Source: an uncultured Clostridia bacterium (lineage in GTDB: Bacteria; Bacillota; Clostridia; UBA1381). Taken from it: a stretch of 64,000 nucleotides of DNA. The DNA lies in contig CANQJC010000003.1 of NCBI GenBank assembly GCA_947624165.1, positions 1 to 64,000 on the forward strand. Direction: 5' to 3'. A program made the translations under genes and the position numbers. The notes under the pieces were generated by a model. The model ran no database searches, was not told where the DNA came from, and saw only the letters and a program-made list of their open reading frames with translations. Each line of letters begins with the position of its first letter. The first letter of the stretch is position 1. Below, piece after piece: positions 7,544-14,344 of the stretch.

Positions 7544-10375
7544 CTATCCCTTATCCGCATCGAGAATTTTTTTTATATAATTCCCCGTATACGACCCCTC
7601 GGTATTCGCCACCTTTTCGGGTGTGCCGGATGCGATAACGCGACCGCCGTTATCGCCGCCTTCGGGTCCCATATCAATAATATAATCGGCTGTTTTGATA
7701 ACGTCGAGGTTATGCTCTATAACAACAACGGAATTGCCGCTTTCGACAAGTTTATTCAAAACCTGTATAAGCTTATGGACGTCGGCAGTATGAAGTCCCG
7801 TCGTCGGTTCGTCGAGTATATATATCGTTTTACCCGTGCTTGTTTTTGAAAGCTCCGTCGCAAGCTTTACTCTCTGCGCTTCGCCGCCGGAAAGCGTCGT
7901 GGAGCTTTGTCCGAGCTTTATATATCCCAGTCCGACTTCGCGCAGCGTTTCCAGTTTACGGCGAATCTTCTGTATATTGGCAAAAAAATCAATCGCTTCG
8001 TCGATCGTCATATCAAGCACTTCGTATATGTTTTTGCCTTTATACTTCACCTCAAGGGTTTCGCGATTATATCGTTTTCCCTTGCAGACTTCACACGGTA
8101 CATAAACGTCAGCCAAAAAATGCATCTCTATTTTCTTTATACCGTCTCCCGCACATGCTTCGCACCGTCCTCCTCTGACGTTAAAGCTGAAGCGTCCCGC
8201 CTTATATCCGCGCATTTTAGCTTCGTTTGTCGTCGCGAACACGTTCCGTATATCGTTAAAAACGTTGGTGTAAGTGGCGGGGTTTGAACGCGGCGTCCTT
8301 CCTATCGGAGACTGATTGATATCAATTATTTTATCGAGCTGCTCTACTCCTCTGATTTCCTTATGTTCACCCGCATGAGTTCTTGCGCGGTTCAAAACAT
8401 GTACAAGACGCTTATAGAGTATTTCGTTTATCAAAGACGACTTACCCGAGCCGGAAACGCCCGTTACGCATGTAAACACGCCAAGCGGTATTTTTACGTT
8501 TATATTCTTCAGATTGTTTTCTTTCGCGCCGCGCACTTCAAGCCATCCTGTCGGCTTGCGTCTTTTTTGGGGTATGTCGATTTTTAACTCGCCGCTCAAA
8601 TACTTACCGGTGATAGAACGCGGAGACTTTATTATGTCGTCGATACCGCCCATACCGACAAGCTCGCCGCCGTTAACTCCCGCTCCGGGTCCGATATCGA
8701 CTATACAATCTGCGGCGTACATTGTATCCGTGTCGTGTTCAACAACTATTACGGTATTACCGAGATCGCGTAAATGCTTGAGCGTTTCGATAAGTCTGCC
8801 GTTATCTCTCTGATGCAGTCCGATACTCGGCTCGTCAAGTATATATAAAACTCCCATAAGCCCCGAACCGATCTGAGTGGCAAGTCTTATACGCTGCGCT
8901 TCGCCGCCGGAAAGCGTGCCTGACGAACGCGAAAGCGTGAGATAATCAAGTCCCACATCAAGCAGGAATTGAAGTCTTGAACGTATTTCCTTTATGATTT
9001 GAGACGCGATCGTTTTTTCCCTGCTGTTTAAAACAAGTCCGTCGATAAATTCCATTTCCCGCCTGATCGGCATACAGGTAAATTCATATATGTTCATTCC
9101 GTTTACCGTGACCGCGAGGACTTCGTCGCTGAGACGCGCTCCGTGGCATTGGGGGCATGTTACGTCGCTTATATAACGTTCTATGTCGTTTCTTACGTAA
9201 TCATACGTATTTGCGTTGTAGCGTCTTTCAAGATTGGTAATTACGCCCTCGAACGGCGCGGTATACGTTCCGCTGCCGTAACCGCGTTCATATCGCATCT
9301 TTATTTTTTCATCTGTTCCGTAAAGTACGATATTGCGTATATTCTCCGGCAAATCGGCAAACGGTGTGTTGATATCAAAACCGAAATGTTCCGCAAGGGC
9401 GCGGAAATACATATTTGCCATTGAGCCGTCTTTATTCGCGCTCAGCCACCCTGTCGCGGTTATGGCACCGTCAAGGAGACTCAGGCTATCGTCGTTTACA
9501 ACAAGGTCCGGGTCGATTTTGGGTAACGCTCCGAGCCCGTCACAGTGCGGACAGGCACCGTAAGGATTATTGAACGAAAAAAGCCGCGGCGTAAGCTCGT
9601 GAATACTGATCCCGCAGTCGGGACACGCAAAATTCTGCGAAAACGACATGATTTCTCCACCTATGATCTCTACGAGAACCAAATCGCCGGTAAGAGAAAT
9701 CGCAGTCTCGAGCGAATCGGTAAGACGCTGATGTATGCTGTCGCGGATAATCAGTCTGTCCACAACGATCTCTATATTATGTTTAAACGTTTTTTTCAGC
9801 TCTATATCCTCGCTTAAATCATACGTCACCCCGTCGGCTTTAACGCGCACGTAACCGCTTTTTCTTGCGTTTTCGAACACCTTTTTGTGTTCGCCCTTTT
9901 TACCGCGCACAACGGGAGCGAGTATCTGTATTCTCGTTCCTTCTTCAAGCGACATGACCGCGTCGACGATCTGGTCAACGCTCTGTCTCTTTACCTCCTT
10001 GCCGCAATTCGGACAGTGAGGTATTCCGATACGCGCGTAAAGAAGTCTCAGATAATCGTATACTTCGGTAACAGTACCGACGGTGGAACGCGGATTTTTT
10101 GAGGTGGTTTTCTGATCTATACTTATAGCCGGAGACAGCCCTTCTATATAATCCACGTCAGGCTTGTCCATTTGTCCCAAAAACATACGCGCGTAAGACG
10201 ACAGAGATTCAACATACCGTCTCTGTCCCTCGGCGTAAATTGTATCGAACGCAAGAGAAGATTTCCCCGAGCCGGAAAGTCCTGTGAAAACCACAAGCTT
10301 TTCTCTGGGGATTTTGAGGTCTATATTTTTCAGATTATGCTCCCGCGCACCTTTTATTATAATGTCTTTCTCCAT
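7544..10375 (-). CDS. uvrA: Excinuclease ABC subunit A
   Basis: Damage-sensing ATPase of nucleotide excision repair; loads UvrB on lesions. 943 residues, full length. Two ABC ATPase halves: Walker [10 protein letters not shown] near residue 32 and GVSGSGKSS near 640, and two LSGGEAQR signatures. Zinc-binding pairs CPNCG/CPDCG..CPHC in the first half and CEAC...CEVC in the second. Last gene of the rex-uvrB-uvrA unit, 11 bases after the small orphan. Confidence 0.98.
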
Positions 10376-10386
10376 ATTTCCCTCTC

Positions 10387-10773
10387 CTACTGCAAATAAA
10401 CGGTACCCATTTCACGGTGTCTTGTCAGTACGTCGTTTCTGAGCTGCATGGCTATTTTGAAATCCTCGATCATCGACTGAGTAAAAACGCCTTCTATCAT
10501 CGGATGTTCCGTATGTATAAGCACGGCTTGATTTACAACATCAAGTCTTTCCGATTCGCTGAATTCGCGTATATCGACGATTTCCGCGTTAATACCCGTT
10601 TCGTCACGCAGCATTTTTTCGGCATTATAGATTTCCCCCATGGTAATATGTCTGTCGCAGAAGCATATAAAACTCAGGAAATCATCGCTTTCCAGTAAAT
10701 ATATAATAGGCGTAAGAATATGTTCGGTTATTATTTTTACAGCCTTATCTATCATATCATGCGTCAAAATCAT
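10387..10773 (-). CDS. Small protein wedged between uvrB and uvrA (nucleotidyltransferase-like?)
   Basis: 128 residues, not recognised with certainty. No membrane segment. The stretch from [19 protein letters not shown] to [16 protein letters not shown] loosely resembles the MNT/HEPN-type nucleotidyltransferase fold, where a hydrophobic strand, a DxRE-like site and a residue run about being called by name follow each other, but the GSxxxG...DxD active-site pair is not present; if related it is probably inactive. Its ATG overlaps the uvrB stop by four bases (ATGA), so it is translated with uvrB. The position suggests a helper or regulator in DNA repair; that is inference from context only. Confidence 0.6.
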
Positions 10774-12731
10774 TCACCCATTTCCTTTTCAAGTTTCCGA
10801 ATTCTGTCTCTGAGCACGGCAGCTTCTTCAAATTCGAGGTTTTCGGCAGCCTTTATCATTTTAGCCTGAAGCTCGGCGATTTCTTTCTCGTAGTTTATTA
10901 CTATATCCTGCTGTACATCGTCGTTCTCCACCTTTTTCAGGGATTCTATGATATCCCGTATATCCTTTTTTATTGTCCTCGGAACTATTCCGTGCGTCTC
11001 GTTAAATTTCATCTGCATATCCCGACGGCGCATTGTTTCGTCAATGGCGCGGCGCATCGAGCCTGTTACAGTGTCGGCATACATAATAACCTGACCTTCG
11101 GAATTTCTCGCGGCTCTGCCTATTGTCTGTATAAGCGACATTTCACTTCTCAAAAAGCCCTCTTTGTCCGCGTCGAGTATCGCGACCAACGCGACCTCGG
11201 GTATATCAAGTCCTTCGCGCAAAAGATTTATACCGACAAGAACGTCAAACTCGCCTGTACGCAAGTCTTTTATTATCTCGGTTCGTTCTATCGTCGAGAT
11301 ATCCGAATGCATATATCTTACACGGATACCGACGCCCGAAAGATAATCCGTTAAATTCTCAGCCATTCGTTTCGTGAGCGTGGTTACCAGCGTTCTGAAG
11401 CCCTTCTCCGTTCGCTTGTTGATTTCGGTTATTAAATCGTCGATTTGATTTTCCGTAGGCTTGATAAATATCTCAGGATCCAACAGTCCCGTCGGACGAA
11501 TAAGCTGTTCCGCGATAACGGACGAATGTTCCCGTTCGTAATCCGCAGGCGTCGCGCTGGTAAAAATGACCTGATGAAGTCTCTTTTCAAATTCATCAAA
11601 TTTTAAAGGTCTGTTGTCAGCCGCGCTCGGCAAACGAAAGCCGTATCTGATAAGAGTTTCTTTCCTCGCTCTGTCTCCGTTGTACATTCCTCTCACTTGC
11701 GGTACAGTTACATGCGACTCGTCGATTATCATAAGATAATCCTCAGGAAAATAATCAAGCAGAGTATACGGCGCGCTGCCCTTAGCGCGTCCGCTTATAT
11801 GACGGGAATAGTTTTCTATCCCCTGGCAAAAGCCAATTTCGCGCATCATTTCAAGGTCGTACATGGTACGCTGTTCGATACGCTGCGCTTCGATGAGCAT
11901 ATCGCGCTCTTTAAAATACTTGACCTGCTCGCGCATTTCTTCTTCAATGGCGATAAGTGCCATTTTCATTTTATCGTCGGTCGTTACGTAATGCGACGCC
12001 GGCATAATGACTGCGTGGCGGCGCACGCCAACAATTTCGCCGGTAACTACGTTTACTTCGCATATTCGCTCTATTTCATCGCCGAAAAATTCGACGCGTA
12101 TTGCGTTTTCTCCGTTGTTTGAAGGAAAAATCTCCACAACGTCGCCGCGAACGCGAAATTTATTTCTGACAAAATTTATATCGTTGCGTTCATACTGCAT
12201 GGCGACAAGCTTCTTCAGCATTTCGTCTCTGTCCTTCTCCATACCGACACGCAGAGAAAGCATGAGATTCTTATAATCGTCGGGGTCACCCAAACCATAT
12301 ATACACGACACGCTCGCGACAATTATAACGTCTTTCCTTTCGAGAAGCGCGAACGTCGCGCTGTGGCGCAGCTTGTCTATTTCTTCATTTGTCATGGCGT
12401 TTTTCTCTATGAAAGTATCGGTTTGCGGTATATACGCTTCCGGCTGGTAATAGTCGTAATACGACACAAAAAATTCAACGCAGTTATTCGGGAAAAACTC
12501 CTTAAATTCGCTGCAAAGCTGAGCCGCAAGCGTCTTGTTATGTGCAAGGACTATCGTAGGTTTGTTTATCTGAGCGATAACGTTTGCCATTGTAAAGGTT
12601 TTACCCGAGCCGGTAACACCCAAAAGCGTCTGGAATTTTTCGCCGCGCCTGACTCCGTCCACAAGGGTACGGATAGCTTCCGGCTGGTCACCCTGAGGTT
12701 TAAATTCCGAAACAAGTTCAAATTTGTCCAT
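10770..12731 (-). CDS. uvrB: Excinuclease ABC subunit B
   Basis: Helicase-like damage-verification subunit of nucleotide excision repair. 653 residues. Walker [11 protein letters not shown] (residues about 38-47), the beta-hairpin region [22 protein letters not shown] as DEAD-like box, helicase motif [11 protein letters not shown], and a C-terminal UVR domain (about 615-650, [17 protein letters not shown]) that contacts UvrC. Downstream of the P-loop/Asp23 gene by 19 bases, overlapping the next gene by 4. Confidence 0.98.
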
Positions 12732-12750: not shown

Positions 12751-13566
12751 TTATTTCCTTAAATTCTTTACCAATATGTTCACGCGGCGCGCGTTTACCG
12801 AAGTATACTTTTCAACATTGTCGCGTACCGCGTCCTGGATTTTCCGGCATACGCTCGGTATATCGCAGCCGTAGCAAAGCGTCACGGTCATGTCGATATG
12901 AACGCCGTGTCCACTTTTTCTCAGATTTATATTTTGTACTTTGTCAAGATCGTCTATTTTATTCGCCTCATATATCGCGATTTCGTTTATCACGTTATCC
13001 GATATAATATAATCGCCCATATAGCTGAATGTGGGGCGAACAATTGATTTGTCGGCGGCGACCGTCGTATCTTCTTTATCGAGATTCTTTTGGAATCGGC
13101 GCAGAGGATGAAGGAAATAGCCGGAAAACTCCTTTTTGATTTCAAAAGTCGGCACGGGAATGACGTGCTTGCCCTCCACTCTCCTCATTCTTAACGCCAT
13201 ATCCATTTCCTCGCGCGACGCGACGTCCTCGATTCGAATGAATTGTTCAATTTTGCCTACGCCGAGATTTTTTGCGATTTTTTCAGCCATTTCTTCGGAC
13301 GTTCCGAGAATCATCAGACATTGTATATTATTTTTTTTGATAGCCCGCTGTATGCTTCCGACTTGATAAGAGCGCATAAATAACGCGTGTTTCACAGACG
13401 CGATTTTTGTGTCTTCTTTTTTCGCGGACGTGCCGGCGATCACTTTACCGTGCGAAATGAGCAAGCCGTCGTCAATAATTGCGTCCGCGCCGTATTCTCT
13501 GGATACAGTAACGCTTCTGTAACTCTTACCCGTTCCGCTCGGTCCGACAAATGCTATAACCTTCAT
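12751..13566 (-). CDS. P-loop ATPase fused to an Asp23/Gls24-like domain
   Basis: 271 residues. The N-terminus is a nucleotide-binding fold with Walker A GPSGTGKS (residues 8-15), a possible Walker B region (QCLMILGTS, about 105-113) and a following alpha/beta region. The last 80 residues (from VINEIAIYEANKI to VNILVKNL) match the Asp23/DUF322 pattern: alternating strands with HIDMTVTLCYGCDIPSVCRKIQDAV and a final VNARRVNI. Asp23 proteins are envelope-associated stress proteins in Firmicutes; here the domain is joined to an ATPase. Lies 13 bases behind rex and before uvrB. Exact function unknown; domain reading is from motifs alone. Confidence 0.75.
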   Translation of the reverse strand: MKVIAFVGPSGTGKSYRSVTVSREYGADAIIDDGLLISHGKVIAGTSAKKEDTKIASVKHALFMRSYQVGSIQRAIKKNNIQCLMILGTSEEMAEKIAKNLGVGKIEQFIRIEDVASREEMDMALRMRRVEGKHVIPVPTFEIKKEFSGYFLHPLRRFQKNLDKEDTTVAADKSIVRPTFSYMGDYIISDNVINEIAIYEANKIDDLDKVQNINLRKSGHGVHIDMTVTLCYGCDIPSVCRKIQDAVRDNVEKYTSVNARRVNILVKNLRK

Positions 13567-13579
13567 AAATAAACTCCGT

Positions 13580-14218
13580 TTAATTTTTATTGCTCTTGAT
13601 TTTATACGACAGCGTCATGAGCGAATCCGAAAGATGTACGTTTTCAACCGCCACGTCACGGTCAAAATCAAGCTCGGTGTAAGAAAAGTTCATCAGTCCC
13701 TTTACGCCGCAGCCCGTCAGCCGCTCCGCCGTCTCCATAACCGCTTCTCTCGGTACGGTCAATATGGCGATATCCACTCTGTTGTGCTTCAAAAAGTCCT
13801 CGATATTGTCCGCGTCGCTTATTTCTATACCGTTGATTTTTGTGCCGATAATGTTTTTGTCGTTGTCAAATATACCCACAAGGCGAAATCCGCGTTTTTC
13901 AAACGTATCATGATTCGCAAGTGCTCTGCCGAGATTGCCCGCGCCGACGATTATAAAGGTATCGTCGTCGTGCAGACCGAGAATATCGCCTATTTCGCCG
14001 TAAAGATGTTCCACATTATATCCGTAACCTTGCTGACCGAAGCCGCCGAAATAATTGAAATCCTGCCTGATTTGAGACGCCGTAACATTCATTTTTTCGC
14101 TCAGCGCATTTGACGATATACGTTTGATATCCTGTTTGAGAAGTTCGCCGAGATAGCGGTAATAGCGCGGAAGCCGTTTGATGACGACCTCAGGCACTTT
14201 TTTTGACTTATCGTTCAT
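13580..14218 (-). CDS. rex: Redox-sensing transcriptional repressor Rex
   Basis: Senses the NADH/NAD+ ratio and represses fermentation and respiration genes when NADH is low. 212 residues from the ATG at 14218; the track ATG at 14227 is only one base from GGGAG, so the later ATG is preferred. Winged-helix domain (about 1-80) with RLPRYYRYLGELL and VTASQIRQDFNYFGGFGQQGYGY, then a Rossmann domain with IVGAGNLGRALA and the C-terminal dimer helix. Heads the rex-ATPase-uvrB-orphan-uvrA unit. Confidence 0.96.
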   Translation of the reverse strand: MNDKSKKVPEVVIKRLPRYYRYLGELLKQDIKRISSNALSEKMNVTASQIRQDFNYFGGFGQQGYGYNVEHLYGEIGDILGLHDDDTFIIVGAGNLGRALANHDTFEKRGFRLVGIFDNDKNIIGTKINGIEISDADNIEDFLKHNRVDIAILTVPREAVMETAERLTGCGVKGLMNFSYTELDFDRDVAVENVHLSDSLMTLSYKIKSNKN

Positions 14219-14252
14219 GGCATACATACTCCCTGTTATTTATCTGTCAATT

Positions 14253-14281
14253 AGTATACCATATTATTTAAAATTTGTACA
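14253..14281 (-). promoter_or_regulatory. Promoter of the rex-uvr unit
   Basis: TGTACA (14276-14281), 17-base spacer and TATACT (14253-14258) on the reverse strand, about 35 bases before the rex start. The -35 box is a weak match. Confidence 0.6.
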
Positions 14282-14303: not shown

Positions 14304-14344
14304 CGCAGAAAAAAATCGGATTTTAAAACCCGATTTTTTCTGCG
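14304..14344 (-). terminator. Terminator of the aconitase gene
   Basis: Stem GCAGAAAAAAATCGG/CCGATTTTTTCTGC directly past the aconitase stop, with A and T tracts on both sides. Confidence 0.88.

Follow-up and report, generated by a model that had tools for sequence, protein, structure and literature searches.

A widespread Bacillota protein joining a P-loop domain to a loop-less Asp23 domain, encoded in a rex-uvrBA unit of an uncultured Clostridia bacterium

Canonical members of the Asp23/Gls24/DUF322 family (PF03780), among them Asp23 of S. aureus and YloU and YqhY of B. subtilis, are small, single-domain proteins. Asp23 of S. aureus is a filament-forming oligomer that is anchored to the membrane through AmaP (PMC6954212), and YqhY influences lipid synthesis in B. 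subtilis (PMC5437119). The premise of the initial annotation of this locus, that Asp23 domains normally stand alone, is accurate for the canonical proteins but not for the AmaP type (NF033218, Asp23 membrane anchor), in which an Asp23-like domain lacking the Gly-rich loop is already fused to transmembrane helices. Here we describe a protein, X, with a comparable layout of an N-terminal module followed by a loop-less Asp23-like domain, in which the N-terminal module is a soluble P-loop domain instead of transmembrane helices. Relative to the canonical family, with which its C-terminal domain is homologous over the full length, X has an additional 159-residue P-loop domain and a conserved linker, and is without the Gly-rich loop.

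The gene for X lies downstream of rex, and the nearest described gene arrangements are the Rex autoregulatory operons of Clostridia. Rex autoregulation is reported in Caldicellulosiruptor bescii (PMC6391272) and the order acn-icd-rex in Caproicibacterium lactatifermentans (PMC9600882); in the passages of these two sources that were consulted, rex is found near acn together with a Rex-type site, and X downstream of rex is not named. Here too rex is near acn, with a degenerate candidate for a Rex-type site ahead of it. The Rex consensus of the Clostridiaceae is TTGTTAANNNNTTAACAA (PMC8457756).

In the window, by which we mean the whole 64,000-nucleotide stretch of DNA analyzed, the genes follow one another tightly in the order rex-X-uvrB-orf128-uvrA, with gaps of 13 nt (rex/X), 19 nt (X/uvrB), -4 nt (uvrB/128-aa ORF) and 11 nt (128-aa ORF/uvrA), and X is thus inside a rex-uvrBA unit as had been annotated. 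For the 128-aa ORF, Pfam gives nothing up to E=1, and neither NCBIfam nor the PDB yields a significant match. Upstream of rex, at a distance of 117 nt, is acn, and the gap between the two holds a terminator-like hairpin followed by promoter-like elements. Coordinates of the features are collected in Table 1.

Table 1. Features of the rex-X-uvrB-orf128-uvrA region of the window, with the evidence for each.
Feature	Coordinates	Strand	Evidence
X (P-loop/Asp23 fusion protein, 271 aa)	12751..13566	-	ORF with ATG start; Asp23 match; orthologues across Bacillota
X N-terminal P-loop domain, residues 1-159, confidently modelled to about residue 133	13090..13566	-	AlphaFold; orthologue lengths; weak Foldseek matches to P-loop kinases
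X Walker A GPSGTGKS, residues 8-15	13522..13545	-	Direct reading; G8, G11, G13, K14 and S15 invariant (70 sequences)
X invariant D32-D33-G34 after the second strand	13465..13473	-	70/70 sequences; possibly a Walker B or metal site
X interdomain motif, residues 172-184, consensus E-K-S-V/I-V-R-P-T-F-S-Y-x-G	13015..13053	-	Conservation in 92 sequences
X Asp23 domain, about residues 179-270, without Gly-rich loop	12757..13032	-	PF03780; hhalign
rex, redox-sensing repressor	13580..14227	-	PF06971 E=4.6e-22; PF02629 E=6.7e-18
uvrB	10770..12731	-	Pfam UvrB domains
128-aa ORF between uvrB and uvrA	10387..10773	-	Overlaps uvrB by 4 nt; kept in place in L086, L087 and L088
uvrA	7544..10375	-	Pfam UvrA domains
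Putative degenerate Rex operator TTGACAGATAAATAACAG	14233..14250	-	5 mismatches to TTGTTAANNNNTTAACAA; aligned with 1-mismatch sites in L004 and L005; weak alone
Putative -10 element TATACT, with TG before it	14253..14258	-	Consensus scan; number of matches in the region not above chance
Intrinsic terminator-like hairpin with T tract, between acn and rex	14305..14343	-	Folding energy -18.3 kcal/mol

The C-terminal half of X matches DUF322, as had been proposed. The Pfam Asp23 model PF03780 is matched by residues 211-269 with E=4.2e-12 and 46.9 bits, against a gathering cutoff of 28, with the match spanning the second half of the model only. When the region from residue 172 onwards is compared with canonical clostridial Asp23 proteins using hhalign, the whole domain is aligned (104 columns, E=5.2e-18), including the N-terminal IS-x-x-V-I segment. 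The Gly-rich loop falls in a gap of the profile alignment, and the same loop is missing from the AmaP-type domains, to which the X domain aligns with E=2e-13. Because the profile alignment covers the full domain and the AmaP-type proteins lack the same loop, the alignments indicate that this half is a true Asp23 domain in a loop-less form. NF033218 is matched at E 0.01 or better by 17 of 30 X orthologues, and X of the window scores 15.6 bits with this model, under the curated cutoff of 55. There is no transmembrane-like stretch in X, whose maximum 19-residue hydropathy is 1.0, compared with 2.5 or more in AmaP-type proteins. Since the Asp23 half is poorly conserved and without the Gly-rich loop, it may not assemble like Asp23 itself. 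The genome of the window encodes two other proteins with an Asp23 domain (G000:C6:68488 and G000:C28:14691). The MamM C-terminal domains found for this half by Foldseek with the full-length model were set aside as a resemblance of fold, at 11-13% identity.

Conservation is greater in the N-terminal half, with a mean pairwise identity among 92 X sequences of 49% over residues 1-157 versus 27% over the Asp23 domain. The P-loop domain has a constant length in nearly all orthologues measured, and 15 of its residues are invariant in 70 sequences (G8, G11, G13, K14, S15, D32, D33, G34, K49, A61, M93, A124, R128, H134 and P137). By direct reading, the N-terminus MKVIAFVGPSGTGKS contains the Walker A motif, and in the AlphaFold model of the N domain alone (mean pLDDT 83.9, pTM 0.77) this motif sits between strand 1 and helix 1 of an alternating alpha/beta arrangement. 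Confidence is low for residues 134-159 of the N domain, of which 137-159 are poorly modelled when the domain is taken alone, and for the linker. Conservation in the interdomain motif is also strong: of 92 sequences, 87 have R177, and P178 and G184 are each present in 91.

Assignment of the N domain to a family was sought by several routes. Pfam provides no accepted family for this half, the NCBIfam matches of X are all below threshold, and searches of solved structures by sequence returned only Walker A stretches and designed proteins. Foldseek against the PDB gave nothing at 0.001 or better; the top matches were the small-molecule P-loop kinases (cytidylate, adenylate and gluconate kinases), with a best E of 1.2e-3 for cytidylate kinase (TM scores 0.27-0.46) and TM scores of 0.2-0.46 for the group. 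Sequence likeness to these kinases does not reach beyond some 30 columns at Walker A, and profile comparisons with HPr kinase, cytidylate kinase, ABC-F and UvrA gave short matches at Walker A only, that to cytidylate kinase extending over 31 columns. The N domain is therefore best described as a predicted P-loop domain outside the family models found, kinase-like at best. Of the designation "P-loop ATPase", the first part is borne out by the Walker A motif and the predicted alpha/beta fold, while "ATPase" is a prediction made from the Walker A motif. Structure prediction and profile comparison of both halves, which the initial annotation had proposed, thus matched the Asp23 half and predicted a P-loop fold for the other, with no enzyme family assigned.

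A closer relationship, in which X is an HPr kinase-like protein kinase, was suggested by the distance between Walker A and the Asp-Asp pair, which together with the hairpin that follows is similar by eye in HPr kinase/phosphorylase, and by the order of helix, strand and hairpin in the AlphaFold model. TIGR00679 is matched by one of 30 members (E=0.0012) and PF07475 by one of 70 (E=9.5e-4). However, the profile match to clostridial HPr kinases ends after 33 columns around Walker A and Asp-Asp and is no better than those to cytidylate kinase or ABC-F, the top 50 Foldseek matches include no HPr kinase, and the genome of the window encodes a separate, true HPr kinase. Homology to HPr kinase was not supported by the profile comparison, and we regard this identity for X as highly improbable.

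The initial annotation considered the fusion an unusual combination, but it is common in this group. Of 245 class genomes sampled, 135 have full-length orthologues, as do more than 100 of 300 phylum genomes, at identities down to 28%; since both halves are kept throughout these, a chance origin of the fusion is excluded. A scan of contigs from named genomes gave 80 X loci, including Halanaerobium, Tepidanaerobacter, Selenomonas, Caloramator and Thermobrachium. One locus (L160) is on a contig labelled as a Treponema MAG, where an error of binning or naming is likely, the other named loci being from Bacillota. A term search of the literature found no description of a P-loop/Asp23 fusion. In RefSeq the orthologue of Monoglobus pectinilyticus is named "Asp23/Gls24 family envelope stress response protein", and the gene order at that locus is acn-isocitrate dehydrogenase-rex-X-DNA glycosylase. 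This set from acn to the glycosylase lies on a 285,641-bp record (L216, NZ_OY725741.1) that is called a plasmid of the species and may be a chromosomal piece. Where X follows yebC (L123, L128, L139, L148, L150, L153 and L174) the ORF is longer, 345-364 aa in six cases and 443 aa in L174, the extra residues being mostly N-terminal, ahead of the P-loop.

We surveyed the neighbors of X across genomes to determine how far the arrangement in the window recurs. The linkage to rex does so: among the places listed, rex is directly upstream of X in at least 29 of the 89 class genomes with both, representing ten families. By contrast, uvrB is beside X only in the family of the window. Of 170 loci whose upstream sequence was long enough, 55 have rex ahead of X, and the gene downstream is uvrB in 24, an ogg-type glycosylase in 30 and cmk in 20. 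All 24 loci with uvrB downstream have rex upstream, and all are either from the window's family or are named-contig loci that group with it. Nineteen of the 30 loci with ogg also have rex upstream, and in rex-X loci outside the window's family the repair gene most often found downstream is the ogg-type DNA glycosylase. The other neighbors of X include cmk-plsC-typA, PHP, yebC, DUF6062 and GH18, and this wide variation outside the rex lineages gives no steady pointer to a pathway. In many lineages a DUF6062 gene adjoins X, often on the opposite strand, at L098, L121-L123, L128, L135, L148, L150, L153, L036, L041, L044, L047, L053 and L057-L060.

In the class, X and rex are found together no more often than chance would give (both in 109 genomes, X only in 26, rex only in 83, neither in 27; Fisher p=0.35 without correction for the tree), and X is therefore not a Rex accessory. 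The linkage to rex could be an inherited accident of gene order without functional meaning for X. The 26 genomes having X without rex are in keeping with such an accident, as is the clustering of the rex label on the X tree, which requires 8 changes compared with 21 in shuffles, the pattern that a single old arrangement with later losses would leave; the tree is unrooted, such that gain and loss of the linkage are not separable. However, ten families share the rex-X order, the median gap being 13 nt, and two of those lineages have retained Rex-type operators in front of rex, from which it follows that co-expression at least has been maintained. An accident without meaning for X thus seems unlikely. 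The distribution agrees with rex-X being an old arrangement, frequently in the form rex-X-ogg, that was subsequently lost in places, and with uvrB having its position beside X in one family.

The presence of a repair gene after X in two separate arrangements, with ogg and with uvrB, could also be taken to mean that X works in DNA repair with its downstream neighbor. Many orthologues adjoin other genes, however, and neither Pfam nor NCBIfam reveals a DNA-binding or repair domain in X. Replacement of a lost ogg by uvrB was considered and rejected: the genome of the window keeps an ogg homologue elsewhere, and uvrB therefore did not take the place of a lost gene. We consider a role of X in repair very unlikely. 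A role in phage biology or anti-phage defence was likewise discarded, PADLOC having returned no match and PHROG none that was significant.

Regulation by Rex was examined by searching for operators. Sites with two or fewer mismatches to the consensus are present ahead of rex in 11 of 45 rex-X loci, compared with 0.3 expected from dinucleotide shuffles (maximum 4), these 11 loci being related and not 11 independent cases. They belong to the window's family and to a second group of genomes with ogg downstream. In the window itself, a scan allowing up to three mismatches found 4 sites versus 4.8 expected, with none near rex, and the degenerate site TTGACAGATAAATAACAG, which directly follows the putative TATACT -10 element, is seen only by alignment with relatives. 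These sequence comparisons make Rex control of the X unit likely in the genus, and, because the degenerate operator is at the same aligned place as the near-consensus sites of the relatives, Rex control of rex-X-uvrBA is plausible in the strain of the window. Ahead of X genes without an adjacent rex, sites with two or fewer mismatches number 4 in 118 loci versus 0.7 expected, a weak excess in that two are from the same genome region and a third from that of a close relative. Rex-like sites with two to three mismatches, several of them near copies, are ahead of X without adjacent rex at L061-L063, L185, L072 and L074.

The reading we prefer, while giving it somewhat less than an even chance, is that X is a soluble, cytosolic NTPase, probably on the kinase side, which is assembled or docked by its Asp23 domain and is encoded in a Rex-repressed operon, with co-expression as its link to repair. 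The N domain, with its P-loop NTPase fold, would bind ATP or a similar nucleotide and act on some target, and the Asp23 domain would dimerize or dock on other Asp23-type proteins so as to gather or place the enzyme, possibly with some effect on the envelope. In the lineage of the window, rex-X-uvrB-orf128-uvrA would be transcribed from its own promoter, and Rex, acting at the operator just after the -10 element, would repress the unit such that expression rises at high NADH; X would be connected to excision repair by co-expression only.

A different use of the same parts is that X is a regulatory NTPase switch and not a metabolic enzyme, with the nucleotide state of the P-loop controlling Asp23 assembly and so informing an envelope scaffold of the state of energy or redox. 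The recurrent position beside the redox sensor gene is consistent with this, as is the filament-forming, membrane-associated behavior of S. aureus Asp23 (PMC6954212), and the two halves could be coupled by the interdomain motif, which is highly conserved around R177-P178 and G184. Against it, the co-occurrence of X and rex is no greater than chance, and the charged invariants beyond the P-loop (K49, R128 and H134) fit an active site at least as well. We view a switch as possible but rather unlikely.

The initial annotation had also suggested that X could couple redox state, envelope and repair. The redox arm survives as co-regulation, given the near-consensus Rex operators ahead of rex in relatives, but the repair arm is reduced to operon neighborhood and the envelope arm to Asp23 homology. 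With these arms so reduced, X and rex not phyletically coupled, and the uvrB link local, a mechanistic coupler is not supported. A more ambitious reading is that X founds a P-loop enzyme family of the Bacillota that has a substrate or protein target of its own, in which the Asp23-type domain places or switches the activity and Rex ties expression to the NADH/NAD ratio, to give a nucleotide-dependent link between redox state and envelope; we regard this as distinctly doubtful.

Whichever reading applies, more than half of the class genomes sampled carry X, and the RefSeq label refers to its less conserved half and thereby hides the strongly conserved P-loop domain. X is worth keeping as a conserved P-loop family under an Asp23 label, and, if the P-loop domain is an enzyme, many gut and industrial anaerobes would have an activity that has yet to be assigned. 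The position of X beside rex, with Rex-type operators in relatives, makes a simple expression test possible, and the Asp23 half would allow a direct test of whether a nucleotide can control envelope scaffolds.
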